From Planctomycetaceae bacterium (GTDB taxonomy: Bacteria > Planctomycetota > Planctomycetia > Pirellulales > Thermoguttaceae), in contig PWXP01000406.1 of assembly GCA_003561895.1 (NCBI GenBank), positions 1-34,531 of the forward strand: a DNA stretch of 34,531 nt. The letters run 5' to 3'. Shown one piece after another: positions 884 through 31,964 of this stretch. The position numbers were made by a program, and so were the translations under genes. Each line of letters opens with the position of its first letter. The first letter of the stretch is position 1. The notes under the pieces were generated by a model that worked only from the letters and a program-made list of their open reading frames with translations, was not told the origin of the DNA and ran no database searches.

Positions 884-1147
884 CTATCCGCCGGCGTCGG
901 CGGAGAGGATCAACACGCAATCGCCGGGGCAAAGCGGGGTGGTCGGATCGTTGACGAACCGGTCGCCATTGACGTTTGCTACGTAGCCCGGCCGCAGCCG
1001 GCCCGGGGAAAAGCACCGTTCGGCCAGCGTGGGAAAGCGACGGGACAGGTCGGCGAGCACCTCCCCGAGCCGGCAGCCCGCGGCGGTCGTCGCATCGACG
1101 CCCGCCGTCCGGCGCGCCATACCGAATAGTTCCACGCGGACCCTCAT
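884..1147 (-). CDS. MoaD/ThiS-family sulfur carrier protein
   Basis: Small beta-grasp protein of 87 aa that ends in Gly-Gly (ADAGG), the C-terminus that MoaD/ThiS carriers need for adenylation and thiocarboxylation. It begins MRVRVELFGMAR, typical of MoaD, and has the internal VNGDRFV turn of the fold. Its ATG overlaps the fdhA stop by 4 bp (ATGA), so it is translationally coupled to the catalytic subunit. Context suggests it provides sulfur for molybdopterin synthesis, or a dedicated form for the tungsten/molybdenum enzymes FdhA and the divergent AOR. Such carriers often sit next to AOR genes. A ThiS role cannot be excluded from sequence alone. Confidence 0.85.
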   Translation of the reverse strand: MRVRVELFGMARRTAGVDATTAAGCRLGEVLADLSRRFPTLAERCFSPGRLRPGYVANVNGDRFVNDPTTPLCPGDCVLILSADAGG

Positions 1148-3828
1148 GCTTTACCGTTGAGTTTTTCGATGCGCACGGCGCACACTTTCGTTTCGGGAAT
1201 CTTCGACGCGGGGTCCAAGGCGGCGTGGGTCAGCACGTTGGTGGGCGCGTCGGGGAAGTGGAACGTGAGTGAGACCAGGCCCGGCGGGCACGCCTCGGTC
1301 AACCGGGCCTCGACTTCCAGCCTGCCCCGGCGGGAACGGACCTCCACGGTTTGGCCGTCCGCGATCTCCAGCCGCGCGGCGTCGTCGGGATGGATCCTCA
1401 GCAACTCCCGGTCGCTCAAGGTCTTCAGCCCCTCGACCCGCAGGGTCATCGTGCTGGTGTGGTAATGGTAGAGGCTCCGGTCGGTGGTCAGCAGCAGGGG
1501 ATATTCCGGGTCGGACAACTCGGCCGGCGGTTTGTACTCCAACGGAACGAAGCGCGCTTTGCCACCGGTGGTGTTGAAACGCTCCGTGTGCAGAACCGGC
1601 GTGCCCGGATGATCGGGAGTCGGGCAGGGCCACTGCAGGCCCCCGTGGTCGAGCCGCTCGTACGCCATACCGCCATAGCTCGGGGTGACCGCGGCGATTT
1701 CAGCCGAAATCGCTTGCGGATTGCCGCAGTCGAAGCTCACCGCGCCCATGCGCCGGGCGATCTGGTTGACGATCCACCAGTCGGGCTTCGCCTGGCCGAC
1801 CGGCTCGACGGCCGTCCGGACCCGCTGCACCCGGCGCTCGGTATTGGTGAACGTGCCGTCCTTCTCGGCGAAGCTGGCCGCCGGGAGGACGACGTCGGCC
1901 AGCCGGGCGGTTTCCGTGAGAAAAATGTCCTGGCAGACGAAGAAGTCCAACTGGGAAAGGCCCTCGAGCACGTGGCTCGAGTCGGCCTCGCTGAGGACCG
2001 GATTCTCGCCGACCACGTACAGCGCCTTCACCCGGCCGGCGCTCATCGCATGGAACATCTCCGTCAAGGCCAGCCCCGGACGGTCGCTCAGTTCGGCTTG
2101 CCAGGCTGCCTGGAACTTCGACCGGACGGCGGGGTCGGCCACTTTCTGATAGCCGGGATACACGTTCGGCAGCGCGCCCATGTCGCACGCGCCCTGCACG
2201 TTGTTCTGGCCGCGCAGCGGGTTGATGCCGCCGGCCGGCCGGCCCACGTTGCCGGTCAGCAGCGCCAAGTTGCTGACCGCCAGCACGTTGTCAGTGCCGT
2301 GGCTGTGCTGGGTGATGCCCATAGCATAGAGGATGGCGGCGGGCTTGCGCGTGGCATAGGTCCGGGCGGCGTCGACGATCGCTTGCCCGGGCACGCCGCT
2401 GATCTGCTCGACCCGCTCGAGGTCGAAGCCGCCCAGTGAGCTGCGGAATGCTTCGAAGTTCTCGCAGCGCTCGGCGACGAAGCCGTGGTCGAAGAGTTCT
2501 TCCTCGACGATCACCCGCATCATGCCCATGAGCACCGCCACGTCGCTCCCCGGACGCTGGCGCAGGCGGATCGAGGCGTGGCGGCCCAGGTCGATATCCT
2601 TGGGGTTGACCACGATCAGTTCAGCGCCGCGGCGAACGGCCTCCTTTACGTGCAGGCCGATGATCGGATGGGCGGCGGTCGTGTTCGTCCCGATCGCCAG
2701 GATGCACGCCGCGTCGCGCAACTCGCCGATGCTGTTGGTCATCGCGCCGCTGCCGAGGGTCTGCGCCAGGCCGGCCACCGACGGCGCGTGGCACAGCCGC
2801 GCGCAGTGGTCGACGTTATTGGTGCCCATGACCGCCCGGGCGAACTTCTGGATAAGGTAGTTCTCTTCGTTGGTGCACCGGGCCGAGGCCATGGCGGTGA
2901 ACCGGTTGCCGCGGTAGACCGCCAGTTTACGGGCCACCAGGTCCAGGGCTTCGTCCCAGGAGGCCTCCACAAGCCGGCCAAATCGCTTGATCAGGGGCGT
3001 GGTGAGACGGTCGGGATGGTGAACGAAATCGTGCCCGTACCGGCCCTTCACGCACAGCCGGCCGCGGTTGACGGGGCTGCTCCGATCGCCCTCGACCGAT
3101 ACGATCCGGCCGCTGCGGACGCCCAAGGCGATGGAGCAGCCCGTGCCGCAATAGGGGCAGATCGTGCGGACCTCGCGCGCCGGCTGCTGGAACCGCTTCG
3201 GGACCAGCGCTCCGACCGGGCAGCGCTCCACGCATTCGCCGCACGATTCGCATCGCGACTCGACGATCGGCCGGTTGCCGAAGGTGCTCACGCGCATTCG
3301 GTGGCCGCGGAAGGCGAACTCCAGCGCGTCGACCCCGGCCACCTCGTTGCACGTGCGAATGCAAATGCCGCACAGAACGCATTTGTCGTGGTCGAGCGTG
3401 AAGAAGGGATTCGACGCGTCGCGCTCGCCGCTGGGCTCAGGGTGGCGCAGCCGGGCCATCCGTTGTGGGTCGATGCCCACCCGAGCCGCCGCCTGCTGCA
3501 ACTGGCAGTTCTGATTCTGCACGCAGCTCAGGCAGTCGCCGTGGTGGTTGGCGATCAGCAGTTCGAGGGTGACGCGCCGGGCGAACTCGACCTCTCCGGG
3601 GTCGGTGCGGACGCCCATGCCTTCCTCGACAGGCGTCCGGCAGGCGAGCACCTGCCCGCGACCTTCCACGTCGACCAGGCACAGGCGGCAGGAGCCGGTC
3701 GGCTCCAGGTCGGGATGGTGGCACAGGTGGGGAATGTAGACGCCAGCCGCCAGGGCCGCTTCCAGCAGGTTGCTGCCGGTCGGGGCTTCGATGATCGCAC
3801 CATCGATCGTGATCGAAAGTCGTTCCAC
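1144..3828 (-). CDS. fdhA: Formate dehydrogenase catalytic subunit (Cys type, NuoG-like N-terminus)
   Basis: Molybdenum/tungsten bis-pterin formate dehydrogenase of 894 aa that reversibly converts CO2 to formate. Cluster ligands visible in order: [2Fe-2S] Cys36, 47, 50 and 63; a His95/Cys99/102/108 cluster of NuoG type; two ferredoxin-like [4Fe-4S] sites (C150xxCxxCxxxC160 and C193xxCxxCxxxC203); and the catalytic-domain [4Fe-4S] at Cys224, 227, 231 and 259, with the conserved Lys261. The active-site loop reads HCARLCHAPSVAGL, so Cys346 (with His347) replaces selenocysteine. The start is GTG at 3828: GGAGG at 3836-3840 lies 7 nt upstream, and the beta-grasp domain begins at once. The frame stays open further upstream, but that part lies inside the NuoF-like gene. 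The domain layout with NuoE/NuoF partners matches soluble NAD-linked FDHs. The formate-versus-CO2 direction in vivo is inferred from the Wood-Ljungdahl context. Confidence 0.95.
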   Translation of the reverse strand: MERLSITIDGAIIEAPTGSNLLEAALAAGVYIPHLCHHPDLEPTGSCRLCLVDVEGRGQVLACRTPVEEGMGVRTDPGEVEFARRVTLELLIANHHGDCLSCVQNQNCQLQQAAARVGIDPQRMARLRHPEPSGERDASNPFFTLDHDKCVLCGICIRTCNEVAGVDALEFAFRGHRMRVSTFGNRPIVESRCESCGECVERCPVGALVPKRFQQPAREVRTICPYCGTGCSIALGVRSGRIVSVEGDRSSPVNRGRLCVKGRYGHDFVHHPDRLTTPLIKRFGRLVEASWDEALDLVARKLAVYRGNRFTAMASARCTNEENYLIQKFARAVMGTNNVDHCARLCHAPSVAGLAQTLGSGAMTNSIGELRDAACILAIGTNTTAAHPIIGLHVKEAVRRGAELIVVNPKDIDLGRHASIRLRQRPGSDVAVLMGMMRVIVEEELFDHGFVAERCENFEAFRSSLGGFDLERVEQISGVPGQAIVDAARTYATRKPAAILYAMGITQHSHGTDNVLAVSNLALLTGNVGRPAGGINPLRGQNNVQGACDMGALPNVYPGYQKVADPAVRSKFQAAWQAELSDRPGLALTEMFHAMSAGRVKALYVVGENPVLSEADSSHVLEGLSQLDFFVCQDIFLTETARLADVVLPAASFAEKDGTFTNTERRVQRVRTAVEPVGQAKPDWWIVNQIARRMGAVSFDCGNPQAISAEIAAVTPSYGGMAYERLDHGGLQWPCPTPDHPGTPVLHTERFNTTGGKARFVPLEYKPPAELSDPEYPLLLTTDRSLYHYHTSTMTLRVEGLKTLSDRELLRIHPDDAARLEIADGQTVEVRSRRGRLEVEARLTEACPPGLVSLTFHFPDAPTNVLTHAALDPASKIPETKVCAVRIEKLNGKA

Positions 3829-3830
3829 AA

Positions 3831-5720
3831 CTAGGCCTCCACCGGGACGAAGTTGCCGGAGAGCCGTTCCACCGCCGCCACCTTGGGCGGACAAGCGTCG
3901 AGGCAAGCTCCGCACCGAATACACCGATCCTGCTCGATCCGGTGGGCCTGCTTGCGATCGCCGCGGATGGCGTCGGTGGGGCATACCCGCTTGCAGGCGC
4001 TGCACCCGATGCAGCGGTCGGCGTCGATCTGGAACGAAATCAGCGCCCGGCAAGCGCCCGCCGGGCACTGCCGCGCATGCACGTGGGCCTCGTACTCGTC
4101 GCGGAAGTAGCGGAGCGTGGTAACCGCCGGGTTGGGCGCCGTTTGCCCAAGGCCGCACAGCGAGCCCTTCGCAACGCCCCGGGCGAGGTCTTCCAGCAAA
4201 TCCAGATCGCCGGCGCTGCCCTTCCCTTCGGTGAAATCGGTCAGAATGTCCAGCATCTGTTTCGTCCCCAGGCGGCAGGGAGGGCAAGCGCCGCACGACT
4301 CCTGCTGGGCGAAGTCGAGGAAGTAGCGGGCGAAATCGACCATGCAGGTCGTGTCGTCCATCACGACCATGCCGCCGGAGCCCATGATGCTGCCGGCCGC
4401 CTTGAGGGAATCGTAATCGACCGGCGCGTCGAGCAGGGCAGCCGGGAGACAACCCCCGGACGGTCCGCCCGTCTGCACGCCCTTCAAGGGCCGGCCCCCG
4501 ATCAGTCCCTCGCCGATGTCGAAGATCATCTCCCGCAGGCGGATTCCCAGCGGCACTTCGATCAGGCCGGGCCGCTGCACCTGCCCGACCAGCGAGAACG
4601 TCTTCGTGCCCTTGCTCTGCTCGGTGCCGTACTGGGCGAACCAGGCCGGGCCTTTCTGGAGGATCAGCGAGACACAGGCGAGGGTTTCGACGTTGTTGAT
4701 GATGGTGGGCCTGCCCCACAATCCCGCGGCGGCGGGAAACGGCGGCCGGGGGCGGGGCATGCCGCGCCGGCCCTCGATCGACCCGATCAAGGCCGTTTCC
4801 TCCCCGCACACAAAGGCGCCGGCGCCCTCCTTGACCTTGATGTCAAAGCGGAAACCCGATCCGAGCACGTCATCGCCCAGCAGGCCGTAGGCTTCCGCCT
4901 GGGCCAACGCGGTGCGCAGCCGCTCGAGCGCCAGCGGATACTCGGCGCGGCAATAGATGTAGCCGGTGCGGGCGCCCAGGGCGTGCCCGCCAATGAGCAT
5001 GCCCTCGAGCACGGCGTGCGGATCGCTTTCCAGCAGGGCGCGATTCATGAAGGCGCCGGGGTCGCCTTCGTCGGCATTGCAGACGAGATACTTGTCGCTC
5101 CCGGCCGCCTCCCGGCAGAGTTGCCACTTGCGCCACGTGGGGAAGCCGGCCCCGCCGCGACCGCGCAGCCCCGCCGCGCGGAGTTGTTCGATGACCGCCG
5201 CGGGCCCCGCCTCCAGCGCGCGGGCCAGGCCGCCGTAACCGCCGTGTGCCAGGTACTGGTCGATGTCGGTCGGATCGATCCATCCACAACGCCCCAAGGT
5301 ACGCCGGACCTGGCGCTTCAGGACCGGCGTGTCGAACAGTGGCAGAATGCCGTCCACGCGCGCTTTGCCCAACGTGCCCAAGGCGTACTCGGCGGCAGGG
5401 TCGCCGCCGGCCAGGTATCGCGCCACCAGTTCCGCAGCCCGCTCGGACGTCACCTCGCCATAGCACACCGTCGGCATTCCGGGCCTGGCGATGGCGACGA
5501 CCGGCTCGGCATAGCACAACCCGATGCAGCCGACCTCGATCAGCCGCGCCTCGATGCCCCATGCGGCCAACGCCTGGCGGAGGGCATCCCGCACTTCCAA
5601 CGCGCCGGCCGACCGGCCGCACGTTGCCGTGCCGATGAGAATGCGCGGCCGCGGGTCGGCCTGGAGAAACTCCCATCGCTTGAGGGCCCGCGCGCGCAGG
5701 TCTTCGAAGGATCGGCTCAT
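3831..5720 (-). CDS. NuoF/HydB-like flavoprotein subunit of formate dehydrogenase
   Basis: 629-aa diaphorase subunit that links FdhA to NAD(H). An N-terminal thioredoxin-like [2Fe-2S] domain carries Cys34, Cys65 and Cys69. The FMN/NADH domain has GLRGRGGAGFP at 184-194 and NADEGDPGAF at 215-224. A NuoF [4Fe-4S] motif follows (SCGACPPC, later SLCGLG). The C-terminus adds a 2x[4Fe-4S] ferredoxin domain (CIGCSACKRVCP at 570-581, CIRCGACLDACP at 600-611). This extra ferredoxin tail is typical of HydB-type subunits of electron-bifurcating hydrogenases and formate dehydrogenases, so ferredoxin as well as NADH may be used (inference). The ATG at 5720 overlaps the NuoE-like stop by 4 bp. An in-frame extension to 5807 would lie inside the preceding gene and is not needed. 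Confidence 0.93.
   Translation of the reverse strand: MSRSFEDLRARALKRWEFLQADPRPRILIGTATCGRSAGALEVRDALRQALAAWGIEARLIEVGCIGLCYAEPVVAIARPGMPTVCYGEVTSERAAELVARYLAGGDPAAEYALGTLGKARVDGILPLFDTPVLKRQVRRTLGRCGWIDPTDIDQYLAHGGYGGLARALEAGPAAVIEQLRAAGLRGRGGAGFPTWRKWQLCREAAGSDKYLVCNADEGDPGAFMNRALLESDPHAVLEGMLIGGHALGARTGYIYCRAEYPLALERLRTALAQAEAYGLLGDDVLGSGFRFDIKVKEGAGAFVCGEETALIGSIEGRRGMPRPRPPFPAAAGLWGRPTIINNVETLACVSLILQKGPAWFAQYGTEQSKGTKTFSLVGQVQRPGLIEVPLGIRLREMIFDIGEGLIGGRPLKGVQTGGPSGGCLPAALLDAPVDYDSLKAAGSIMGSGGMVVMDDTTCMVDFARYFLDFAQQESCGACPPCRLGTKQMLDILTDFTEGKGSAGDLDLLEDLARGVAKGSLCGLGQTAPNPAVTTLRYFRDEYEAHVHARQCPAGACRALISFQIDADRCIGCSACKRVCPTDAIRGDRKQAHRIEQDRCIRCGACLDACPPKVAAVERLSGNFVPVEA
3836..3840 (-). 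promoter_or_regulatory. Shine-Dalgarno site deciding the GTG start of fdhA
   Basis: GGAGG on the minus strand overlaps the end of the NuoF-like gene, whose TAG stop is at 3831-3833. It sits 7 nt before the GTG at 3828-3826. No ATG is available at the beginning of the conserved N-terminal ferredoxin domain, so this site supports the GTG start. Confidence 0.75.
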
Positions 5721-6184
5721 TTCGCGGCGCTCCCGTTCCGGCCGAAGACCTCGGCCACTTTGCCCGGTGTCATCTTCGCCTGGACCTTCTTGTTGGTCAT
5801 CACGCAAGGAGAAAGGCCGCAGGCGCCGATGCAGGCCACCGTTTCCAGAGAGTACTCGCGGTCGGGCGTGGTCTGCCCTTGCTTGATGCCCAGGTGTTGC
5901 TCAAACGCCTCCAGGATGCAACGAGCCCCGCGGACATGGCAGGCCGTCCCCCGGCACACCGCCACGTGGTTGCGGCCGACGGGGGTGAAGCGAAACTGGG
6001 CATAGAACGTGGCAATTCCGAAGACCGTGCCTTCCGGGACGCCGGTGAAACGAGCGACCGCCTCCATGCCGGCGTCGGACAGGTAGCCAAATTCCTCCTG
6101 CACTCGCTGCAACAGAAGGATCAGCTCCTCGCGGCACCCGTCGAACGAGGAGAAGATGGCCTCCAGACGAGGGTCGCTTTGCAT
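5717..6184 (-). CDS. NuoE-like [2Fe-2S] subunit of formate dehydrogenase
   Basis: 155-aa thioredoxin-fold subunit homologous to NuoE/HydC. A helical N-terminus carries the family segments LLQRVQEEFGYLS and GVPEGTVFGIATFYAQF. The [2Fe-2S] ligands are Cys77 and Cys82 (CRGTAC) and Cys118 and Cys122 (CIGAC). It is the first gene of the operon, about 50 nt downstream of the predicted transcription start. The chosen ATG at 6184 has GGAGG 5 nt upstream. The frame also extends to a TTG at 6223, which would run into the leader palindrome and is unlikely. It passes electrons between the FMN site of the next subunit and FdhA. Confidence 0.93.
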   Translation of the reverse strand: MQSDPRLEAIFSSFDGCREELILLLQRVQEEFGYLSDAGMEAVARFTGVPEGTVFGIATFYAQFRFTPVGRNHVAVCRGTACHVRGARCILEAFEQHLGIKQGQTTPDREYSLETVACIGACGLSPCVMTNKKVQAKMTPGKVAEVFGRNGSAAK

Positions 6185-6214
6185 GGCATCCTCCGCTGAG
6201 GTGGGGTTTGGTAG

Positions 6215-6231
6215 CGTATCCAACGGATACG
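6215..6231. repeat. 17-bp palindrome in the fdh operon leader, candidate operator
   Basis: Perfect inverted repeat CGTATCC-AAC-GGATACG with 7-bp arms. It lies just downstream of the predicted transcription start of the nuoE-like/fdhA operon and about 30 bp before the nuoE-like ATG. Position and symmetry suit a repressor operator or a small 5'-UTR hairpin. The motif does not match an operator I can name. Confidence 0.5.
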
Positions 6232-6418: not shown

Positions 6419-8248
6419 ATGAACGCTAATGATCGTGCCGAAACCTTCGCCTACCATGGCCGTTACCTGCGGTTGAACGTGAGTAGCGGTCAGGCTGAGC
6501 CCGTCGCGCTAAGCGAAGGCGAATTGCGCCGTTCTCTGGGCGGGATCGGGCTGGGGGTCTTCCTGGCCCTGCGGGAGGGCGGAGCGGCGGCCGATCCCCT
6601 CGCCGAGGCGGCGCCCCTGGTCTTCGCGTTCAGCCCGCTGGTCGATAGCCCGCTGACCACTTCCGCTCGGTTCGCCGTGGTTGGCAAGAGCCCGTTGTCC
6701 GGACGCATCAACGATTCTCTTGCCGGAGGGCCGTTTGCCATCGAAGGGAAGCGGACCGGCTACGATGCACTGGTCCTGGTCGGGCGGGCCGCCAAACCCT
6801 CCCTCCTGGTGGTCGACGACGCCGGGCCGCGGCTCGAGCCGGCCGGCGACCTGTGGGGCGCCGGCTGCATCGAGGCCGAGAAGCAACTTGCCGGACGATT
6901 GGGGCCGGAGCACCAATTTGCCGTCATTGGTCCGGCCGGCGAGAAGCACGTGCGGTTTGCCTTGATCGCCCACGCCGGGCGTTTTGCCGGGCGCGGCGGG
7001 AGCGGCGCGGTCCTCGGCGCCAAGAACCTCAAGGCGATTGCCGTGCATGGGGCACACCGCTGCCGCTGGTCCAACCCGGACCGGCTTGCCGAACTGGCCG
7101 ACGGACTGTCGCAGCGGTCGCTCGGCCCGGCCACCGCCCGTTACCGGGATATCGGCACCATCGAAAACCTCGTCTTGTTGAACCGCCTGCGCGCCCTGCC
7201 CACCCGGAATTTCCAGCAAGGCTCCTTCGGCCGGGTCGCGGAGCTATCGCCGGAGCGGATCGCGGAAGTCCGGGGCGAGGTCCGAAGCAGTTGTACGTGC
7301 TGCACGATCGGCTGCGAGCACCTGTTCCCCGCCGGACGCGGGCGGAAACCGGTCCGCCTGGAATACGAGAGCCTGTTCGCCCTCGGACCGCTTTGCGGGA
7401 TTCACGACCCGGAGGTCGTCCTGACGGCCGTCGAGCGCGCGAACGAACTGGGCCTGGACACGATCAGCACCGGGGGCACGATCGCGTTCGCCATGGAATG
7501 CTGCCAGCGAGGCCTGGTCCGCGCCCCGTGGCTGCGGTTCGGCAGCGGACCGGCCCTGCTCAGGGCCGTCGAGGAAATCGGCGCGCGCCGCGGACTTGGA
7601 AACCTGATGGCCGAGGGCACCCGCGCGATGGCCCGGGCGGTCGGCGGCGGAAGCGAAGCCTTCGCGCCGCACGTGAAGGGGCTGGAGATTCCCGGCTACG
7701 AGCCGCGGGCGATGCAGACGACGGCCCTCGGCTTTGCGGTCGGAACGCGGGGTGCCGATCACAACCGCTCGGGCGCCTACGAGGCCGACTTCTCGCCCGG
7801 GGTGGACCGCCGCCATGCCGGTCCCGACGCGGCGCTGCACGCCGTGGAAACCGAAGACCGCGCGGCCGTGCTCGATTCCCTGGTGCTCTGCAAGTTCTTG
7901 CGAGGCGTGTTCACCGATTTCTACGCAGAAGCCGCGGAGTTGCTGGCCGCCGCCACCGGATGGGACGTCGGCGGCGACGAACTCCGACGGACCGCCCAAC
8001 GCATCGTAACGGCCAAGAAGTACTTCAACATCCTCGCCGGTTGGCAACCGGAAGAAGACCGGCTCCCGGCGCGCTTCCTCAGCGAGCCCCTGGGCGACGA
8101 TCCCCGGGCCGAGCTGTCGGCGCAGCAGTTGGGCGAAATGGTGCGGGCCTACAACCTCGCCCGCGGCTGGTCGCCGGAGGGCTGGGTATCGCAGGAGCAA
8201 CTCAATGCGCTCGGCGTGCCGCCCCTGGACCACACCATGCCGGCGTAA
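6419..8248 (+). CDS. Aldehyde:ferredoxin oxidoreductase-family tungsten enzyme
   Basis: 609-aa member of the AOR family, tungsto-bispterin enzymes that interconvert carboxylic acids and aldehydes with ferredoxin. An N-terminal AOR domain is followed by the [4Fe-4S] ligands C292xxC295xxxC299 (CTCCTIGC) with the fourth at Cys491 (LCKFLRG). The family pterin/active-site motif GADHNRSGAYEAD is at 445-457. Length is normal for the family. It is transcribed divergently from the formate dehydrogenase operon and ends 8 bp before the convergent mobA stop. In acetogenic metabolism it could reduce acetate to acetaldehyde, but the substrate cannot be read from sequence and BamB-like or other AOR subfamilies remain possible. 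The start shows no ribosome binding site. Confidence 0.9.
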   Translation: MNANDRAETFAYHGRYLRLNVSSGQAEPVALSEGELRRSLGGIGLGVFLALREGGAAADPLAEAAPLVFAFSPLVDSPLTTSARFAVVGKSPLSGRINDSLAGGPFAIEGKRTGYDALVLVGRAAKPSLLVVDDAGPRLEPAGDLWGAGCIEAEKQLAGRLGPEHQFAVIGPAGEKHVRFALIAHAGRFAGRGGSGAVLGAKNLKAIAVHGAHRCRWSNPDRLAELADGLSQRSLGPATARYRDIGTIENLVLLNRLRALPTRNFQQGSFGRVAELSPERIAEVRGEVRSSCTCCTIGCEHLFPAGRGRKPVRLEYESLFALGPLCGIHDPEVVLTAVERANELGLDTISTGGTIAFAMECCQRGLVRAPWLRFGSGPALLRAVEEIGARRGLGNLMAEGTRAMARAVGGGSEAFAPHVKGLEIPGYEPRAMQTTALGFAVGTRGADHNRSGAYEADFSPGVDRRHAGPDAALHAVETEDRAAVLDSLVLCKFLRGVFTDFYAEAAELLAAATGWDVGGDELRRTAQRIVTAKKYFNILAGWQPEEDRLPARFLSEPLGDDPRAELSAQQLGEMVRAYNLARGWSPEGWVSQEQLNALGVPPLDHTMPA

Positions 8249-8256
8249 GGTGCGCG

Positions 8257-8958
8257 TCAGGGCGCGGTTTCGCGGTCAGATAACCATTTCTGTCCGCCAG
8301 CGAAAGACGCACAACGGGGAGGAAATCCGGCACCTTCCACCGGCAGCCCGGCTATCCGCAACGCTTCGCAGTATTCGTCGGGGTGGTTGATGTTCCGGAA
8401 GGTCATCAACCGGGGATCGACGTCGCGGAGTTCGGCGGGCTGGACAAACCGGGTGGCGACGCGACGGAACAGGAAGACCGGACGCCGCCGGTGACGGACC
8501 AGCAGCCGGTCGACCTCCGCGAGCACGCTGCGCCGATACACGGCCGCCAGCGGTTGGTAGCGGCCGTCGACCACCGGGACCGCCGCTTCATAACCGTCGT
8601 TCAACTCGATCATGCGGGCGGCGAATTCGGGGACCAGCAAAGGCACGTCGCACGCCGTGACGTAGGCGGCCTCGACCGGCGGCGGCAGGGCGGCCAGCCC
8701 GCTGCCGATGCCTTCCAGCGGGCCGGTGTCGGGGCGGCGATCGCGGGCGATCAGCACGCCGGGCGGCAGGTCGGGCAACTCCTGGCCGGCCGCGGCGGCG
8801 ACCACAATGGAATCGACCACCTGGCCGAGGAGGCGCACCACGCGCTGGAGCATGTACTCGGGCCCGAACGGCAGCCACGCTTTCGCGGCGCCCATCCGGC
8901 GGCTTTCACCCCCGCACAGGACCACCGCGCCAAATCGTGAAGTTCTACGGCGGATCAT
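8257..8958 (-). CDS. mobA: Molybdenum cofactor guanylyltransferase MobA
   Basis: 233-aa nucleotidyltransferase that adds GMP to molybdopterin to form the MGD cofactor used by FdhA-type enzymes. The GTP-binding signature reads LCGGESRRMGAAKAWLPFG near residues 14-32. The metal-binding Asp lies in TACDVPLL (residues 101-108). It is the last gene of the long Wood-Ljungdahl transcript and converges with the AOR gene. An alternative ATG at 8988 would add ten residues (MPSTSIVELR); neither start has a clear ribosome binding site. A MobA specific to this operon fits the need to supply pterin cofactor to formate dehydrogenase. Confidence 0.88.
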   Translation of the reverse strand: MIRRRTSRFGAVVLCGGESRRMGAAKAWLPFGPEYMLQRVVRLLGQVVDSIVVAAAAGQELPDLPPGVLIARDRRPDTGPLEGIGSGLAALPPPVEAAYVTACDVPLLVPEFAARMIELNDGYEAAVPVVDGRYQPLAAVYRRSVLAEVDRLLVRHRRRPVFLFRRVATRFVQPAELRDVDPRLMTFRNINHPDEYCEALRIAGLPVEGAGFPPRCASFAGGQKWLSDRETAP

Positions 8959-9008
8959 TCGGAGTTCGACGATCGAAGTCGAGGGCATGGAGCGCCCTGC
9001 TACGGTAG

Positions 9009-9644
9009 TCAAAACGGTTTGCCTTCCAACCGCGACACGCAAGATTCGCACAGCACGACGATGTCTTCGGTGGCAAGGAACATTTCGATGTTCGGCGGCA
9101 GAAGCCAGGTGGCCTCGACGGGAAACTCCTCGTCGGCGTCGTGCCAGACCAGCCCGGTGGCCAGGCGGGGAAATACGTCGAAGAGGAAGGTCAAAGGTTC
9201 GTCGGCGGTTCGGCGCCCGCCGATGGCCACCGCCGCCGCGTGGATCGACGCCCGGGTCTTTCCCGCCGTGGCACAAAGGCGGCCGGTGGTCCGTTTGCGG
9301 CACACTTCGGCATAACCCCGGCCGGCCGAAAGGTCGGCGAAGGTGACGTGCGGCGGTTGGCGGGCTGGACGGCCGGAAACGGCCAGGTAGTGCAGTACCA
9401 GGATCTGCCAGGCCGGCCGGACCGTTTCGCCGCGCGAGGTGACCACGTTGCCGGAAGAGAGATCGACCGCAAGCGAAGCGCCGAGGACCGGGAGTTCCCA
9501 CCCGGCCGGCGAGGGCACGCCGCCCAGCCAGGAAATCTGCTCCGGCGCCTGGCGCCGGAGAGCCTCGACGGCCATGCCGACGGCCACCTGGTAGGCGTTT
9601 TGGGGAGGTGGGGCGGGGCGGTGTCGACTGGTGGCGTTGGTCAT
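9009..9644 (-). CDS. DUF3786 domain protein
   Basis: 211-aa soluble protein recognised as DUF3786 from the pattern WLGGVPSPAG...VLGASLAVDL, then LVLHYLAVSGR and the VTFADLSAGRGYAEV region. Function is unknown. From memory, members often lie beside CO dehydrogenase, corrinoid protein or methyltransferase genes of anaerobes, and that is the setting here, between the MetE-like protein and MobA. No catalytic motif or membrane segment is evident. There are two Cys in the C-terminal VLCESCVSR. The ATG at 9644 lacks a Shine-Dalgarno sequence and follows the upstream stop by 45 bp. A role in corrinoid or nickel enzyme assembly is speculation. Confidence 0.75.
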   Translation of the reverse strand: MTNATSRHRPAPPPQNAYQVAVGMAVEALRRQAPEQISWLGGVPSPAGWELPVLGASLAVDLSSGNVVTSRGETVRPAWQILVLHYLAVSGRPARQPPHVTFADLSAGRGYAEVCRKRTTGRLCATAGKTRASIHAAAVAIGGRRTADEPLTFLFDVFPRLATGLVWHDADEEFPVEATWLLPPNIEMFLATEDIVVLCESCVSRLEGKPF

Positions 9645-9689: not shown

Positions 9690-10727
9690 TTACTGATGGA
9701 TCGTTTGGCTGAGGTCGGCGGCCAGGTCGCGAGTGAGCGCGAGGGCCCGTGCGGCTGCTTCCGGCGGGCGCGTACCCAGGCCGCAGGCGGGCGTGATGAG
9801 GCTCTGCCGGAGCACCTGCTCGCGGGAGAATCCCAAGGCGGCTACTCGGGCAATTTGCGGCAGCAGCCGCTCTCGCAACGTGTCGACGGTTTCCGCGGCA
9901 AGCGATTCGGGGTCCGTCGGGACGACGCCCCAGGCGATGGTCCCGCCGCGCGCAAGGAACGTTTCCAGGTCGTCGCGATAGACGAGGAAGTTGTCGGCAA
10001 ACTCGAAGGCATCGAAGGAAACGACGGCCAGTTTTCCGCCCAGGAAGATCGACCAGTCGGTATTCGAGCAGCAGTGCGAGCCGACGGTCTCGGCGCCGGC
10101 CGCCACGGCTTCCAGACACGCGCGGACCTGGGCTACGCTCCAACCGAAGAACGGAGTGCCGAACGACGCCAGGAACGGTTCGTCGACGAACACGACGGGT
10201 TCGGTCCCCGCGGCACGCAGCCGCTCGGTCAGCCACTTCACGCGCAGGTGAAGGAACTTTACCAGCACGTCGCGGACGACTTCGTCGTACAGGATCGGAT
10301 TTCCATCCTCGCCGAGCACGGCCATGCCGACCGTGATGGGCCCGGCGATCTGGGCCTTCGCCTGAACGGCTCCGCGCTGCCGGAGTGCGGCGAGGAAGGG
10401 ATCGAAGCCGCAGGCTGATTCAACCGGGAGAGCGGCCGCGGCCGCATCGCCTGACTCGTAAGCCGCGAAGACCTTCTCCACGCCCAGGTAGAACACCTCG
10501 TCCTGAACGAGCCGTAGTTTGCCATCTTCGGCCTGCACCCCCGGCATGCCCGCCACCGCCTGCTCGTTCATCCCCTCGTTCCGGGAGACTTTCGGCAGTT
10601 GCGGCCAATAGGGCAGGTCGGGCGAGAAGTCGAACACCGCCTCGACGGCCGCCGGGACGTCGGTGTGCGGCAGGCTCCCGATGCCGGTGGCCCGGCAGTT
10701 TCCCAGGAAGATTGTTGTTGCTGGCAT
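9690..10727 (-). CDS. Short MetE-like (core methionine synthase / UROD-MetE family) protein
   Basis: 345-aa TIM-barrel protein related to the C-terminal half of cobalamin-independent methionine synthase. The zinc site of the family is present: H218-C-C220 (SHCCSN) and Cys315 in ITPACGLGTR, equivalent to His641, Cys643 and Cys726 of E. coli MetE. The N-terminus has the TGIGSLPH motif. The MetE N-terminal folate-handling domain is absent. Short core-MetE proteins have been reported to take the methyl group from methylcobalamin or the methylated corrinoid/Fe-S protein. Its place in the operon that encodes that protein makes methionine synthesis from Wood-Ljungdahl methyl groups a good hypothesis. 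Another corrinoid-dependent methyltransferase activity is possible. The ATG at 10727 is 2 nt after the fhs stop. Confidence 0.8.
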   Translation of the reverse strand: MPATTIFLGNCRATGIGSLPHTDVPAAVEAVFDFSPDLPYWPQLPKVSRNEGMNEQAVAGMPGVQAEDGKLRLVQDEVFYLGVEKVFAAYESGDAAAAALPVESACGFDPFLAALRQRGAVQAKAQIAGPITVGMAVLGEDGNPILYDEVVRDVLVKFLHLRVKWLTERLRAAGTEPVVFVDEPFLASFGTPFFGWSVAQVRACLEAVAAGAETVGSHCCSNTDWSIFLGGKLAVVSFDAFEFADNFLVYRDDLETFLARGGTIAWGVVPTDPESLAAETVDTLRERLLPQIARVAALGFSREQVLRQSLITPACGLGTRPPEAAARALALTRDLAADLSQTIHQ

Positions 10728-10729: not shown

Positions 10730-12445
10730 TCAAAACAGTCCGACGACCTCTTCATTCTCGTTGATGTCGATCGAGGCGGCCGCCGGGACTTTCGGGAGTC
10801 CCGGCATGGTCATGATGTCGCCGGCCAGCGCGACCACGAACCCGGCCCCGGCCGCCAGGCGGACGTCGCGCAGGGGCACGTCGAAGTTCTTGGGCCGCCC
10901 CGTCAGGCGAGGATCGCTGGAGAAAGAATACTGGGTCTTGGCCATGCAAATGGGCAGGTGCCCGTAGCCGGCGTCCTCCAGCGCCTGGAACCGCTGGCGC
11001 AACTGCTTGTCGGCCAGCACGTCGGTCGCCCCGTAGATTTCCCGGCAGATGATGTTCACTTTCTGCCAAAGGCTGCACGTATCGGGGTACAGGTAGTGGA
11101 AATCGCTCTTGGTGTTCTCGGCCACGTCCACGACGGCCCGGGCCAGCTCTTCCGCGCCGGCGCCGCCGTGGGCCCAGTTGGTCGCCGGCACGATCTCGAC
11201 CGACAGGTGGGCGCACTTCTGCTGGACGTGGTCGATTTCCTCTTCCGTGTCGCCCCGGAAGGCGTTGAGGGCCACCACGACGGGCAGCCCGAAGCGGTGG
11301 ATGTTCTCGATGTGCTTCTTCAAGTTGCCGAGTCCCCGCTCAAGCGCGTCGAAATTGGGCCGGTCGAGTTCCTTCGGCCCCGCCCCGCCGTGATGTTTCA
11401 GGGCTCGCACGGTGGCCACGAGCACCACGCAGTGCGGGTGGAGGTTGGCCTTGCGGCACTTGATGTTGAGGAACTTCTCGGCCCCGAGGTCGGCCCCGAA
11501 TCCGGCCTCGGTCACCGTGTAATCGGCCAGGCGCAAGGCGAGCTTCGTGGCGATGACGCTGTTGCAGCCGTGGGCGATGTTGGCGAACGGACCGCCGTGG
11601 ACGAACGCCGGCGTGTGTTCCAGCGTCTGCACGAGATTGGGCCTCAGCGCGTTCTTCAACAGCACGGTCATCGCGCCCTGGGCGTTGAGGTCGGCGGCGG
11701 TGATCGGCTTCCGATCGCGGGTGTAGGCGACGATGATCCGGCCGAGCCGCTCGCGCAGCTCGGTGAGCGATTCGGATAGACAGAAGATGGCCATCACTTC
11801 GCTGGCGACGGTGATGTCGAAGCTTCCCTCGCGGGGAATGGAGTTCCCGACGCCGCCCAGGCCGACGAGGATCCGCCGCAGGGCGCGGTCGTTCATGTCC
11901 ATCACCCGGTTCCAGGTGATCCGGCGGGGGTCGATCTGCAGGGCGTTGCCCTGGTGGAGGTGGTTGTCGAGCATCGCGGCGAGCAGGTTGTGGGCCAGTT
12001 CGATGGCGTGCACGTCGCCGGTGAAGTGGAGGTTGATGTCCTCCATGGGGACCACCTGGGAGTAGCCGCCGCCGGCGGCGCCCCCCTTCATGCCGAAGCA
12101 CGGTCCCATGGACGGCTCGCGCAGGCAAACAGCCGTACGCTTGCCGATGCGTTGCAGGCCGTCGGCCAGACCGATGCTGGTGGTGGTCTTCCCTTCGCCG
12201 GGCGGGGTGGGGGTGATGGCCGTGACCAGGACGAGTTTGCCCGTTCGGTGGGCGTTCCTCCGCCCATCGAGCCCCGGCGGGACTTTCGCCTTGTACCTCC
12301 CGTACAATTCCAGGTGTTCCTCCTCGATCCCCAGCCGGGCGCCCACTTCGGCAATGGGGAGCGGCTTGACGGAGCGGGCGATTTCGATGTCCGGCCGCAG
12401 GCCGACCGATGGCAGGTCGACCGGCGGAGACGGTGCAATGGTCAT
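10730..12445 (-). CDS. fhs: Formate-tetrahydrofolate ligase
   Basis: 571-aa formyl-THF synthetase, which activates formate with ATP to 10-formyl-THF in the methyl branch. The ATP-binding loop [12 protein letters not shown] is at 79-89. Other family stretches are [43 protein letters not shown] and [14 protein letters not shown]. Length is close to that of acetogen enzymes. The ATG at 12445 has AGAGG 5 nt upstream; an in-frame extension to 12505 has no support. It follows metF by 56 bp and is tightly followed by the MetE-like gene. Confidence 0.97.
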
Positions 12446-12501
12446 AACGTCCTCTCGAGCTGAGTAAGGCAAAGATACGTAAACGCGCCGGTCACGGCGT
12501 C

Positions 12502-14238
12502 TCATGGTGGCAACGACTCTGTCTCTCGAGTGCGGGCGAGGCGCTGTGTCTCAGATTCGGGCGATGCGGCGCCGGCGGGCATCTCCCCCGTAACGGGGTT
12601 TCTCGCCGGCGGCGCGCCGGCGCGCTCCGCGCCGGCGGCCCCATTGCCCGCTCCCGCGCGGTCTTCGGCGTCCGAGTCCTCTTCGGCCAGGTGATCGCGC
12701 TCCAGGAATCGGTTCGCCCAGGCGGAAGTGTGCCGCAGTTCGCCGCGGTAGAAGACCGGGGGGCGATCGAGCATCGTTTCGCCTTCGCCGAGGTATCGCA
12801 TGCGATGGTACACCCGCACCCAAAAACAGTGCTTGTCGTCCCGTTCACAGCGGCCGTCGGCGGATCCGCCGCACGGACCGTTGCGCAGGTGTTTCGAGCA
12901 GGCGATCATGGGGCACAGGTAGGCGCATTCCGGGAGACTGCAATCGCCGCAATCCTGGCAGTCGTACGTCAGAAACTTCGCCCGCCTCTCCAGCCAATGG
13001 GCCGCGCGCCCGAGCCGCCCGCCCTGAGCGTCCCATCGCGAGCAAAGTTTTTGCATCGCGCCGAACAGCCCCCGATCGCGCGTGAACAGCCAGCGGTGCG
13101 CCAGGAGCGAAACCCGGTAGCCGAGGGTGATTTCGCGGCTTCGCGGCGGATGGTCGAGCGTGCGGAGGTATTCGGGGTTCAGCCGCGCCGGCTCGCTCAG
13201 GCCCGTGGCCGGCTCGTGCTCGAACAGGAAGAACTCGCCGGGCTGGGCATACTGGATTTCCCGGATGAAGTCGCGCCAGTCGTCGGGGCCGAAGCCTTCA
13301 GCCATCTCGATGATCCGGCTGAAGGTGTCCGGCTTGGCCATTCCCCCCAGATAGCCGCCGGCAAACCCGAGCCCCTTGAATACGGCCAACTGCTTCGCGG
13401 CCAGTTCTTGGAAAAAGCCGCGCCCCTTGTCGGGGCCGGCGGCATACTTCCGGACCTCGGCCAGCAACGCGTCGCTGACCACGCAACCGGCCAGTTGGCG
13501 CTCGTGGAACATGCGGGCGACGGTCTTGCTGAGCAGATAGGCGTTGCCGACCACGGGCACGTCGAGGCCGCGGGAGGCCAGCAGCAATTTCACCTCGTGG
13601 AATTTCCGCATGTCGTAGCCGAGTTGGGGAATCACCCAGCGGCCCCCGGCGGCAATCTTCCGCACCAGCTTCAGATACTGGGGGATCAACTCCGCCTCGT
13701 GCCGCTTGAACGGCGAGACGGCGCAGCCGATGAAGAAATCGGTCGCGGGAAGGACCTCCAGATTGCCGCGCCGGCCCGGCACCCGGAGCCCCTCGTTCAT
13801 CGACTGCAGCAGTCCGATCAGGCTCATCGCGTCCAGGTCGAACACGGGGGTCGCCCCGCCCCGGAAACCGCCGGTCGGATAGTCGCCGGTCAGGGCCAGC
13901 ACGTTCTCGAGGCCCTCGGCGCCGTTGCGCCAGGCAGCGGCCTCCAAGGCATTGCGGTTCATGTCCTTGCAGGTCAGGTGGACCACGAGCCGCTCGCGAT
14001 GTTCGGGCAACAGCCCCGCAAGCCAGTCCGGCGGAAGCATGGCCGTGCCGCCCGGATTGTCGGTCACCGAGATCCACCCCACCTGCGGCGCCGCAAGCAG
14101 GTCGCTGGCCATGGCCGCCGCGTCGCCGCCGGAAGCGGGCGACGGGAGCCCGCGGCTGGTGACCACTTCCACCCCATAGTGGAACCGGTCGGACGTGACC
14201 ATCTCCCGGTAAGAACGGGCCTGGTTGGCGGCAATCAT
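12502..14238 (-). CDS. metF: Methylene-THF reductase fused to a MetV-type Fe-S/zinc domain
   Basis: 578-aa protein. Residues 1 to about 320 form the MetF flavin TIM barrel ([10 protein letters not shown] at 88-96, LALTGDYP at 114-121). About 325-516 form the MTHFR C-terminal domain that acetogens encode separately as MetV. That domain has nine Cys (427, 430, 433, 438, 442, 447, 456, 464, 471) in the [12 protein letters not shown]...[10 protein letters not shown]...GPCGG pattern and ends at [14 protein letters not shown]. MetV domains supply a [4Fe-4S] cluster that feeds electrons to MetF, so the fusion builds the whole reductase in one chain. The last roughly 60 residues are a low-complexity Ala/Glu/Pro tail encoded by very GC-rich palindromic DNA and absent from the domain. 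The start is ATG at 14238 with a GGGGAG site. The electron donor (NADH, ferredoxin or a partner) is not evident. Confidence 0.92.
12615..12637. repeat. GC-only palindrome inside the metF tail
   Basis: Perfect 10-bp arms CGCCGGCGCG / CGCGCCGGCG around CTC, surrounded by more CCGGCGG-type repeats (about 12586-12640). It encodes the low-complexity Ala/Gly/Pro tail of the MetF fusion and would form a very stable hairpin in the mRNA about 170 nt before fhs. There is no T-run, so it is not an intrinsic terminator. Confidence 0.5.
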
Positions 14239-14289: not shown

Positions 14290-15129
14290 CTATACCTGGG
14301 CCGGCTCCACTTGGGCCGGCAGGCCCCTCTGCATCCTCCATGCCTTGATGTAATCGTCGCTGTACAGTTCCTTGCCCAGCAGGACCTCGGCGGAGATCAT
14401 GGCCGCGATCAACTCGTCATCGGCGGCGTCGACGATGGCCGCGTCCAGCCCGGCCGCCAGGCACATGACCAGGAAGGTGCGGTTCAGCAGCCGGTTCATC
14501 CGGCATTTCTGGCTGACGTTGGAAAGCCCGACGATGAACTTCGGCGGCGGGTCGTTGACGATCGACAGTTGCCGGATGGCCTCGATGACGAACTGTTGCT
14601 GCTTGAACGCCGCGTTGACCGGCAGGACGATGGGGTCGATGTAGATCGCGTCGATGGGGATGCCGTGCTCCAGGGCGGTCATGATGAAGGTCGCGCCGCA
14701 CTCGATCCGCTTCTCCACGTTGCCCGGCACGCCCTCCTGGTCCATCGTCAGGCCGATGATGGCCGCGCCGCACGAGGTTGCCACGGGAAGGAGTTTCTCC
14801 ATGTAGCTCGGTGCGGCGGTGCAAGAGTTGATCACCAGTTTGGTGTCGGGCAGCGCATCCCGCACCCGCGGCACCACCTGGACCAGCAGGTCGGCCTTGG
14901 CGCTGTCGAGCGAGAGCGGCTTGTCGGTCACCTCGTGGACGGTGCGGGCGAGCCAGACGAAATGCTCCACGGCGTCTCCCTTGGCCGGGCCGACGTTCAG
15001 GTCCATCACGTCGGCGCCGCCGGCGAGCTGCTGCTCCGCCAGATCCTGGATCACTTCCGGGTTCCGCTCGACAATGGCCGATCGAACGTCGCGGTACATG
15101 CCGTTGATGCGTTCACTGAAGACAATCAT
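14290..15129 (-). CDS. acsE: Methyl-THF:corrinoid/Fe-S protein methyltransferase
   Basis: 279-aa pterin-binding TIM barrel (DHPS-like) that moves the methyl group from methyl-THF to Co(I) of the AcsCD corrinoid protein. Family positions visible: GADVMDLNVGP (39-48), LSLDSA with Asp75, VINSC with Asn101, GLTMDQEG, and a late YIDPIVLPVN strand. Length matches the characterised acetogen MeTr. The ATG at 15129 has AGGAGA 6 nt upstream. The gene sits between acsD and metF, directly connecting the methyl and carbonyl branches. Confidence 0.96.
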   Translation of the reverse strand: MIVFSERINGMYRDVRSAIVERNPEVIQDLAEQQLAGGADVMDLNVGPAKGDAVEHFVWLARTVHEVTDKPLSLDSAKADLLVQVVPRVRDALPDTKLVINSCTAAPSYMEKLLPVATSCGAAIIGLTMDQEGVPGNVEKRIECGATFIMTALEHGIPIDAIYIDPIVLPVNAAFKQQQFVIEAIRQLSIVNDPPPKFIVGLSNVSQKCRMNRLLNRTFLVMCLAAGLDAAIVDAADDELIAAMISAEVLLGKELYSDDYIKAWRMQRGLPAQVEPAQV

Positions 15130-15236: not shown

Positions 15237-16199
15237 TTATGTTGCCGTTAGTTCGCCGATCGTCTGGCGGACCGCCTGCATGGCCTCGGGATGGCGAAGC
15301 ACCAGCAGGTCGGCGCTGCCCTGGAGGAGCACCGCGGCGGTGACCGCTTCCCAGGCCGGCCCGCGCCGGCCGATCGGGCCCCAGACCTCCGCCGCCTCGT
15401 CGCCGGTGCGGGCCTCTTTCGTCCGCCACGCCTCGTAACCCACGTCCAGGATCACCGGCTGGGCCATCACCCGGTCCCCGGCCAGCGCCGCCAGCCGGCC
15501 CCGCTCGAGGATCGAGTACACGTACTCCATGCCGTAGCCCAGCGCGGCCGTGGTCGGGTAGATGACCAGGTTGGTCAAGGGATAGCCCGTGTCGCTGACG
15601 AGGATGTTCACCTGCTTCGACTTGTTGATGTCGCACGGGGCCAGGGCGATCAGCTTGTGGCCGTAGGCCTGGGCGGCGGCGGCCAGCGTGCGGTAGTCGG
15701 TCTCGGTCACCGCGCCCAGCAGGCAGTTTTCCCCCCGGGTCGCCTCGGCCACCTTGGGCATCACCGCCTGGTCCTTCGCCGGCACGTCGCAGCCCCAGAC
15801 CACCAGCGGCAGATCGACGGCCTCGAGCACCGCCTGGACCGTTTCGACGGCGGCTTCGGGGGGCCGGTCGCCCTCGTCGGGGTGCGTGCCCAACAGCCGA
15901 AGATTGATCAGGTCGGCCCCCAGGTCCGCGGCCCGCCGAGCCCAGCCGGCCGGCTCCGACCAGACGTCGCCGTAGACCTCCCGCAACGGCTCGGGCCAAC
16001 CGACCGGCGTCGTATCGAGCACGTCCAGGGCGATCGCCGGGGGGTGGGGCGTCTCGCCGTCGGAACTCAAGAAGGCGATGCCCGCCTCGCCGCCGAGCGT
16101 CACCGTGCGGCCGCGGGTGCCGCCTTCGGCGGGCGTGGCGCCGAGCGTCACCGGGTTGATGCGGCCCGACCAGGTTTGTGTGGCGTCAGGAATGGGCAT
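15237..16199 (-). CDS. acsD: Corrinoid/iron-sulfur protein small subunit
   Basis: 320-aa TIM-barrel subunit of the corrinoid/Fe-S protein (CdhD/AcsD family). Recognised from GADLINLRLLGTHPDEGD, the LPLVVWGCDVPAKDQAVMPKVAEA stretch, LIALAPCDINKSKQVNIL and the TTAALGYGMEYVYSI region. It forms a heterodimer with AcsC, caps the cobamide and presents it to AcsE, AcsB and AcsV. The start is ATG at 16199 with AGGAG 6 nt upstream; the frame extends to 16232 without support. A 107-bp gap separates its stop from acsE, the longest gap inside the operon. I see no terminator there. Confidence 0.95.
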   Translation of the reverse strand: MPIPDATQTWSGRINPVTLGATPAEGGTRGRTVTLGGEAGIAFLSSDGETPHPPAIALDVLDTTPVGWPEPLREVYGDVWSEPAGWARRAADLGADLINLRLLGTHPDEGDRPPEAAVETVQAVLEAVDLPLVVWGCDVPAKDQAVMPKVAEATRGENCLLGAVTETDYRTLAAAAQAYGHKLIALAPCDINKSKQVNILVSDTGYPLTNLVIYPTTAALGYGMEYVYSILERGRLAALAGDRVMAQPVILDVGYEAWRTKEARTGDEAAEVWGPIGRRGPAWEAVTAAVLLQGSADLLVLRHPEAMQAVRQTIGELTAT

Positions 16200-16235
16200 A
16201 GGGTTCTCCTCGCAGGCTGTGGGAAGTTCCATGGT

Positions 16236-17012
16236 TCAATACGCACACGCCGTACGCGTGCAAAGCATCTCGGCCACTTGCTCGACGGCCGACCAGGCAG
16301 GGCTCGGCTCCGGCAGGGTGAATACGTCGCGGCCCGCGGCGCCGGCACGCAGGACGCCGCGGTCCTCGGGCACGTCGGGAAGGCGGTGGGCGTCCAGCGC
16401 TTGCAACTCGTCCCGGATCTCCGCCGGCACCCCCTCCGGTTCGGCCCGATTCAACAACACCGCCCGGTAGCCGATCTGCATCGGCAATTCCCGCGAAAGG
16501 GCCACGATCCGCTGGGCCGCGCGGAGCGACGGGCGCGTGGGGTTCAACACGGCAATGAGGAAGTCGATGTCGTTGGTCGTCCGCCGGGAAAGATGCTCCA
16601 TGCCGGCCTCGTTGTCGATCACCACGGCGGCATAGTTCCGCGCCAGTTCACCGAGCGACGTGCGCAGCAAGTTGTTCACCGCGCAGTAGCAGCGGGGTCC
16701 CTCGGGCCGGCCCATGGTGACCAGGTCGAAGCCCTCGGCCTCGCTGATCGCGCGCTGAAGCTCGTCCTCGACGGCGCGGACGCGGCCGATGCCGCTGGAG
16801 GGGGAGCCTTCGGGCGCGGAGCCCTGCTCGCGTATGTCGGCGAGGGTCGTGCCCTCCTCAACTCCCAGGGCCTCGGCAAGGTTCGAACTGGGATCGGCGT
16901 CGACGGCCAGGATCGGCCGGACGCCGCGCTGGCGCAGGGCGCGGACCAGCAGGGCGGCCACGGTCGTCTTGCCGATGCCCCCTTTACCGGCTACGGCGAT
17001 GGAAAGCGTCAT
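16236..17012 (-). CDS. acsF: CooC/AcsF-type nickel-insertion ATPase
   Basis: 258-aa MinD/CooC-family P-loop ATPase. The deviant Walker A is GKGGIGKTT (9-17) and the nucleotide/switch strand is LAVDADPSSNLA. A Cys-x-Cys pair (Cys108, Cys110 in RCYCAVNNLL) matches the dimer-interface Ni(II) site of CooC1. IDNEAGMEHLSRRT is the Walker B region. It overlaps the acsV stop by 4 bp. Of the two CooC homologues in the window this one lies among the acsC/acsV/acsD genes, so it is likelier to load nickel into acetyl-CoA synthase (the AcsF role). Which enzyme each serves is inference. Confidence 0.9.
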   Translation of the reverse strand: MTLSIAVAGKGGIGKTTVAALLVRALRQRGVRPILAVDADPSSNLAEALGVEEGTTLADIREQGSAPEGSPSSGIGRVRAVEDELQRAISEAEGFDLVTMGRPEGPRCYCAVNNLLRTSLGELARNYAAVVIDNEAGMEHLSRRTTNDIDFLIAVLNPTRPSLRAAQRIVALSRELPMQIGYRAVLLNRAEPEGVPAEIRDELQALDAHRLPDVPEDRGVLRAGAAGRDVFTLPEPSPAWSAVEQVAEMLCTRTACAY

Positions 17013-19030: not shown

Positions 19031-20358
19031 TGCTGTTTCTTCAAGTAAGTGGGAAGTCCGGCGGCCTCTTTGGGGCCGATCTCGACACCCCAGCCCGATT
19101 CGTCTTCCACGCCCGCCGAAAGTACCGCCACGAAGCCCGGGAGCACCAGCTTCTTGTGCGCGATCCGGCTTTCGAGCCCCGTTTGGTTCAGGGCCTTGGT
19201 AATGGTTTCGGCGTTGAACTTGTCGGAGGCCCAGGCGGTGAGCACCGAGGTCCCCTCCGTGTCGACGGCCAGCACGTAGGCCGGTACGCGACTGGCCTCG
19301 ACCTCCGACTCGACCGAATAGTAGCTCAACGAGAAGTTCGTGGTCACCAGCACGGGCGAGTCGTCCCCGACCGCGCCCACGCTGTACAGCTTCGGCTCCA
19401 CCGCCACCGGTTTCTGGGGATCGGTGTAGATGTCCTGCCGGGTGGTGAGAATGGGCAGGATCTGCCACGGCTCGCAGGCGTCGGTGACGACCACCGCGGC
19501 GTACTTGGCCACGTAGGTGCCGGCCTCGACGGCCTGCATCGTGGGGTCGGCGCTGCTGGTCAGTGCGAGGGTCGGGTAGCCCAACGCCCGGAAGTTCTTC
19601 AGGGCCAGGCGCCGTATCGCCGTCATGGCCTCCAGGGTCGGTTTCAGCCCCCGCGCACCCGGATCGAGCACGAGTTGCTCCACGCCGAGCACCGCCAGCT
19701 TGGAACTCAAGTCGGCCAGCGCCTCCAACCCGTCGGCCCGCACGGCCAGGGGGCAGTTCTCGTCCTTGGCCACCGCGGCGGCGGCCCCGGCCTCGGCCGG
19801 GTCGGTAATGTACAGCAGGGGGCGCCGGCCGGAGAGGGCCGCGGCCGCCCGGCGGAGGTTGCCCGCGGTGGCCGACATCACCACGCAGGCCAGCCCCGAG
19901 GCGTCGGCCGCCCGCTTCGCGGCCTTTTCCAGCTTCGCCGGGTCGCCCGACTCGTTGTCCACGGCAACCAGGTCTACGCGAATCCGGAGCCCGACCCGCT
20001 CGAACGCCAACCGGCCGACCGCCTCGGCCCGCGCGGTAATCGCCTGCTCGTCGTCGAGGTCGGAAATGCGGACGGCGACGGCCGTGGGGCGGTGGAACTT
20101 CTCCTCGTGGCGGTACAGTTGCGTCTCGTTGCCCACCTTGATCTCGGCATCGCCCGCCCCGATGGTGACCAGTTGGATAGGCGGGCGCGAGGCCGATTCG
20201 AGAGCGGCTGCCGCGTCGGCGCTCACGTGGGGGCACGCCTCCAGCGCCACCTGCTTGGTCGCCACCTTCATGGCAAACGCCAGGCAGGTGGGAAGGCCGC
20301 AGTCCTTGCAGTTCGTCTTCGGTAAGTTCTTGTAAATGTCGAGGCCGGATAACGCCAT
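19012..20358 (-). CDS. acsC: Corrinoid/iron-sulfur protein large subunit
   Basis: 448-aa subunit with an N-terminal [4Fe-4S] domain (Cys17, 20, 25 and 42 in NCKDCGLPTCLAFAM...ACPHV), a TIM barrel, and a C-terminal cobamide-binding domain (TTNFSLSYYSVESEVEASRVP onward). It carries the methyl group on cobalt between AcsE and acetyl-CoA synthase. The cluster serves reductive activation. The start is ATG at 20358, with AGGAA about 7 nt upstream. It follows acsB by 47 bp and overlaps acsV at the 3' end. Confidence 0.96.
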   Translation of the reverse strand: MALSGLDIYKNLPKTNCKDCGLPTCLAFAMKVATKQVALEACPHVSADAAAALESASRPPIQLVTIGAGDAEIKVGNETQLYRHEEKFHRPTAVAVRISDLDDEQAITARAEAVGRLAFERVGLRIRVDLVAVDNESGDPAKLEKAAKRAADASGLACVVMSATAGNLRRAAAALSGRRPLLYITDPAEAGAAAAVAKDENCPLAVRADGLEALADLSSKLAVLGVEQLVLDPGARGLKPTLEAMTAIRRLALKNFRALGYPTLALTSSADPTMQAVEAGTYVAKYAAVVVTDACEPWQILPILTTRQDIYTDPQKPVAVEPKLYSVGAVGDDSPVLVTTNFSLSYYSVESEVEASRVPAYVLAVDTEGTSVLTAWASDKFNAETITKALNQTGLESRIAHKKLVLPGFVAVLSAGVEDESGWGVEIGPKEAAGLPTYLKKQQWKRPA

Positions 20359-22607: not shown

Positions 22608-22629
22608 TTCGTCTTCTCTCCAACTAGGG

Positions 22630-24582: not shown

Positions 24583-24642
24583 GTTCACTCCTGATTGCTA
24601 GTAGAATGTTCCTTCGCAACGGCGGGTCGCGCCGTCGCCTCC

Positions 24643-31950: not shown

Positions 31951-31964
31951 CACCCGTGTTTCTG

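Follow-up and report, generated by a model that had tools for sequence, protein, structure and literature searches.

The 345-aa protein encoded at positions 9690–10727 on the minus strand is very probably a core methionine synthase of the MesB type. Search score, conserved residues, tree placement, co-occurrence across genomes and the surrounding operon all point to this identity, in agreement with the original prediction, which had described it as core-MetE-like. Its activity is best explained as the transfer of a methyl group from the methylated corrinoid/Fe-S protein (methyl-CoFeSP) to homocysteine, which we regard as likely. The MesB family and the CoFeSP hypothesis were already published in 2020 and 2021, and the present protein is a further member; what is added here is the operon linkage in a new lineage, the finding that His122 is not conserved, and a split MetH that likely exists alongside. 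The family, in direct operon linkage with CoFeSP and the methyl branch, now reaches a planctomycete lineage other than the anammox group. The window is the whole 34.5-kb contig (G000:C598) of an uncultured planctomycete, whose draft genome of 4.63 Mb in 680 contigs is 86% complete.

Catalytic Residues and Structure

A Pfam scan of the 345-aa protein detected a single MetE-type barrel (Meth_synt_2, PF01717, E = 4e-8), with the N-terminal domain of MetE absent. The predicted zinc ligands are H218, C220, D239, and C315 (ATG numbering), and the predicted homocysteine-site residues are S18 and D182; none of the zinc ligands varies among the 126 MesB-type proteins compared, nor does D182, and S18 is present in 121 of them. 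A catalytic barrel alone, carrying H218, C220, and C315, had been proposed earlier and is borne out, but D239, S18, and D182 had been overlooked. These three residues matter because the H-x-C...C pattern by itself also occurs in methyltransferases of the UROD (MtaA) type, and that shared pattern, together with a fold that UROD and MtaA-type structures also match (E 5e-6 to 9e-6), is what would speak for a UROD/MtaA-like corrinoid:thiol methyltransferase in place of a methionine synthase. Such an identity is very improbable, since in the structure search of the AlphaFold model (pLDDT 96, pTM 0.93) MetE structures came first with a better match (E 4e-8), Pfam assigned Meth_synt_2 and gave no UROD match (PF01208), and the DEP and IGS motifs, like D239, are of the MetE type. 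A profile comparison brought the DEP, H-x-C, and C-G motifs into register with those of the catalytic half of E. coli MetE (E 2.8e-5, probability 74%); PDB sequences, searched directly with phmmer and by profile, yielded nothing useful (de novo repeat proteins; no match). The spacing of the ligands is that of Q3Z939, the Dehalococcoides MesB, in which zinc is held by H214, C216, D235, and C311 (PMC7857596).

Family Membership and Phylogenetic Distribution

It has been proposed that MesB proteins be recognized by a cut-off of 130 bits to the DET0516-type MesB (Price et al., PMC7857596). The query used here, L199, is a Dehalococcoides-type MesB in which all seven functional residue positions published for Q3Z939 are present; against it, the protein scored 240.5 bits (phmmer), and planctomycete homologues outside the MesB set scored 20 to 117 bits. 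L196 also fits all seven Q3Z939 positions, and L204 fits the CBDB1 numbering, in which the core-MetE residues are H122, H215, C217, and C312 (PMC7005905); these Dehalococcoides-type proteins come from small genomes of the matching order. The highest of the low scores, 117 bits, belongs to a MesB-like protein (G081:C196, L057) from a genome in which neither AcsC nor MetH was found, and a different function is possible for it.

In a tree of 59 proteins, a branch with a support of 99 divides MesB, including the present protein, from the MesB-like proteins that planctomycetes with MetH carry. The placement against core-MetE proteins suggested in the original prediction thus puts it inside the MesB clade; the protein has no match to the UROD family, and neither of the findings named there as refuting was made. 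Its immediate clade (100/100) contains G200, L105, L106, and G145, has a long stem (0.89), and in the best tree stands apart from the anammox MesB; a weak link to Desulfobulbaceae (82, quick tree) was lost in the careful tree.

The phylogenetic profile covered 199 Planctomycetota genomes, 21 with a strong MesB homologue and 178 others. AcsC was found in 20 of the 21 and in 5 of the 178 (Fisher p = 7e-22), while a strong match to the MetH reactivation domain was found in none of the 21 and in 134 of the 178 (p = 5e-12); related genomes were treated as independent, and their kinship inflates both p-values. This is the co-occurrence pattern that Price et al. used in defining MesB (PMC7857596). 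The MesB-like homologues in Planctomycetota that carry MetH (G003, G035, G058, G096, and others) belong to the same superfamily and are 24–34% identical, but they reach only about 20–101 bits against the Dehalococcoides MesB and fall outside the MesB clade; among the 14 genomes with a weak homologue, MetH occurs in 12 and AcsC in none.

Gene Organization

The gene lies in a minus-strand run of 12 genes, acsA-acsB-acsC-RACo-cooC-acsD-acsE-metF-fhs-mesB-DUF3786-mobA, with intergenic gaps of −41 to +107 nt. The run begins with acsA, encoding Ni-CO dehydrogenase (22630–24588), and acsB, encoding acetyl-CoA synthase (20406–22670), followed by acsC for the large subunit of CoFeSP (19012–20358), which together with AcsD is the proposed methyl donor; the reductive activator of the corrinoid Fe-S protein, RACo (17009–19030, start ATG at 19030); a CooC/MinD-type ATPase with a putative role in nickel or CODH/ACS maturation (16236–17012); and acsD for the small subunit (15237–16232), so that CoFeSP is encoded in the operon of mesB itself. 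Then come an acsE-like gene for a methyl-THF:corrinoid/Fe-S protein methyltransferase (14290–15129; PRK07535, 232 bits, under its 259-bit cut-off), metF with a C-terminal DUF5981 (MetV-like) domain (12502–14238), and fhs for formate-tetrahydrofolate ligase (10730–12505, E = 3e-265). Downstream of mesB by 45 nt lies the gene of a DUF3786 protein (9009–9644, E = 2e-22), and a MobA-like nucleotidyltransferase gene (8257–9000, start approximate) forms the 3' end of the run. The position between fhs and the DUF3786 gene is as originally described; a literature search on DUF3786 gave nothing useful.

The mesB frame opens with ATG at 10727, 2 nt past the fhs stop, and gives 345 aa plus a stop; an alternative TTG start at 10733 overlaps the fhs stop. 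A chance ORF is excluded because a mesB 82% identical occurs in a same-genus MAG (G200) and the 345-codon frame carries residues conserved across the family. In G200, the order acsC-RACo-cooC-acsD-acsE-metF-fhs-mesB is identical, with 81–89% identity, and mesB stands directly downstream of fhs within the acs operon in two species. Another same-genus MAG, G199 (84% complete), is without mesB, which counts against the favored reading. A contaminant contig was considered and is unlikely, given the same-genus synteny, a tetranucleotide correlation of 0.98, and a GC content equal to that of other contigs.

Four relatives from its subclade (L043/G145, L105, L106, L108) have mesB away from the acs genes, which also counts against the favored reading. 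This separation, the long stem of the planctomycete subclade, and the suggestion by Price et al. that some MesB paralogues use other corrinoid proteins (PMC7857596) could point to a MesB paralogue acting on a different thiol or with a different corrinoid protein, for example one on C28 or C585. We consider this unlikely, as the gene is the sole mesB copy in the genome, follows fhs directly in the acs operon of two species, and keeps the full set of zinc and homocysteine residues. In other phyla, mesB adjoins RACo, cooC, or acs genes (for example, L138, L150, L159, L160, L166, L180, and L184). The order RACo-mesB-cooC recurs in unrelated phyla, including archaea (L138, L150, L159, L166), and may reflect a link between MesB and the reactivation of CoFeSP.

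Proposed Catalytic Mechanism

In the favored reading as a methyl-CoFeSP:homocysteine methyltransferase, Zn2+ would be held in one TIM barrel by H218, C220, D239, and C315; homocysteine would bind in the barrel through S18 and D182, and its thiolate would coordinate the zinc. The activated thiolate would then attack the methyl group of CH3-Co(III) on AcsCD, releasing methionine and Co(I)-AcsCD. Fhs and MetF would supply methyl-THF, from which AcsE would methylate AcsCD, and RACo would restore cobalt that has become oxidized; MesB would thus tap the Wood–Ljungdahl methyl pool directly. We infer the zinc, homocysteine as the acceptor, AcsCD as the donor, and the direction of the reaction.

It has been reported that the core-MetE of Dehalococcoides forms methionine from methylcobalamin (PMC7005905); a literature search found activity with CoFeSP reported for no MesB. 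His122 of the Dehalococcoides enzyme was proposed as a cobalt ligand in a His-on mode (PMC7005905). The equivalent position, 126 in the present protein, is Gln in 114 of the 126 MesB proteins, including this one, and His in 9, mostly from Dehalococcoidales; a His ligand supplied by MesB is therefore not general, and His-on cobalt ligation of the kind suggested for the Dehalococcoides enzyme cannot be the family-wide mechanism. Gln at this position would fit a donor corrinoid held by its own protein, although it does not prove it.

Comparison with Known Methionine Synthases

The closest known system is the MesB of Dehalococcoides mccartyi (DET0516/cbdbA481; PMC7005905, PMC7857596), with which the present protein shares its size, the single barrel, the H-C-D-C spacing, the Ser and Asp homocysteine residues, co-occurrence with AcsC and AcsD, and a genome without single-chain MetH and MetE. 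The two differ in that they are only about 36% identical; mesB here follows fhs within the acs operon; Gln replaces His at position 122; MetF and AcsE, both missing from Dehalococcoides, are encoded in the genome; and a split MetH is likely present alongside. Full-length MetE, such as that of E. coli, has the same fold and ligands in its catalytic C-terminal barrel, but its N-terminal folate-binding half is absent here, and Glu665 of MetE is replaced by Asp. MesA, MesC, and MesD are likewise core synthases without a folate domain; MesA is restricted to methanogens, MesC is archaeal with His as the second ligand, and MesD is aerobic and occurs with MesX (PMC7857596), whereas the present protein has C220 and is located in a Wood–Ljungdahl operon.

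A Probable Second Methionine Synthase in the Genome

The check for MetH and full MetE recommended at the outset found neither: the 86%-complete genome contains no PF02965 match and no full TIGR02082 match that would indicate single-chain MetH, nor a full-length MetE, its one PF01717 match being mesB. It does encode, on C338, a homocysteine methyltransferase that stands alone and, on C395, one fused to MetF; a cluster on C28 (L041:2340–7575) comprises a corrinoid protein, another metF (61% identical to the copy in the window), a methyl-THF methyltransferase, and another fhs (72%). This cluster is flanked by murB-like and dprA-like genes, and the order metF-methyltransferase-fhs is kept in relatives. 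Among 60 relatives, the C28-type methyl-THF methyltransferase is present in nearly all members of the family, and elsewhere in the order it has no close match; 9 genomes have it no more than 2 kb away from the stand-alone homocysteine methyltransferase, as seen directly in L220 and L223. The simplest reading of the separate homocysteine, methyl-THF, and corrinoid proteins is a three-part MetH, which is probable, their function and partnership being deduced from adjacency in relatives. In the same set of 60 relatives, full MetH is patchy within the family, and all genomes sampled from the order's other families have it; many near-complete family members are without both MetH and MesB.

MesB is thus probably one of two methionine synthases in the organism, and the absence of MetH alone is therefore not attributable to it; as a split MetH is probably present, MesB would not be required for methionine prototrophy. 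It is somewhat favored that the split MetH (C338 and the C28 parts) is the main methionine synthase and MesB an accessory, for example while the Wood–Ljungdahl pathway runs, an explanation that contests the Wood–Ljungdahl origin of methionine and not the identity of MesB. All of the parts are encoded in the genome, the methyl-THF methyltransferase is family-wide with the adjacency described above, and both methyltransferases are retained in family members that have neither MetH nor MesB (G222, for one, is 99% complete). However, the reactivation domain was not found, the corrinoid and methyltransferase matches fall under the NCBIfam equivalog cut-offs, and the same parts occur in relatives with full MetH (e.g., G167), where they could serve another methyl donor. 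The original prediction that methionine synthesis branches off the Wood–Ljungdahl pool probably holds for the MesB route, with methyl-CoFeSP as the presumed donor, but is overstated for the organism's methionine synthesis as a whole because the parts of a split, folate-dependent MetH are present in the genome and across the family.

A broader reading is offered tentatively and seems rather less probable than its negation: the organism would have two separate routes from formate to methionine, one through MesB and CoFeSP and the other through the split MetH with its own fhs-metF-methyltransferase-corrinoid cluster, and MesB would generally use a His-off corrinoid protein. If so, methionine could be obtained with the Wood–Ljungdahl pathway running or idle. 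As AcsE, MetF, and a probable split MetH all accompany MesB here, the proposed transfer from CoFeSP to homocysteine can be tested against the folate route in one organism.

Other Features of the Window

No riboswitch was found in the 34.5-kb window. At 1144–6223 (minus strand), NuoE, NuoF, and a molybdopterin protein of the FdhA/NuoG type are encoded, probably forming an NAD-linked formate dehydrogenase that feeds the methyl branch. A long ORF on the opposite strand (6419–8248, plus) resembles, by eye, aldehyde:ferredoxin oxidoreductase. A tRNA is located at 26891–26961, and the plus-strand region 28940–33840 encodes a Cache-domain histidine kinase, a sigma-54 activator, and a response regulator with a GcvH-like domain.
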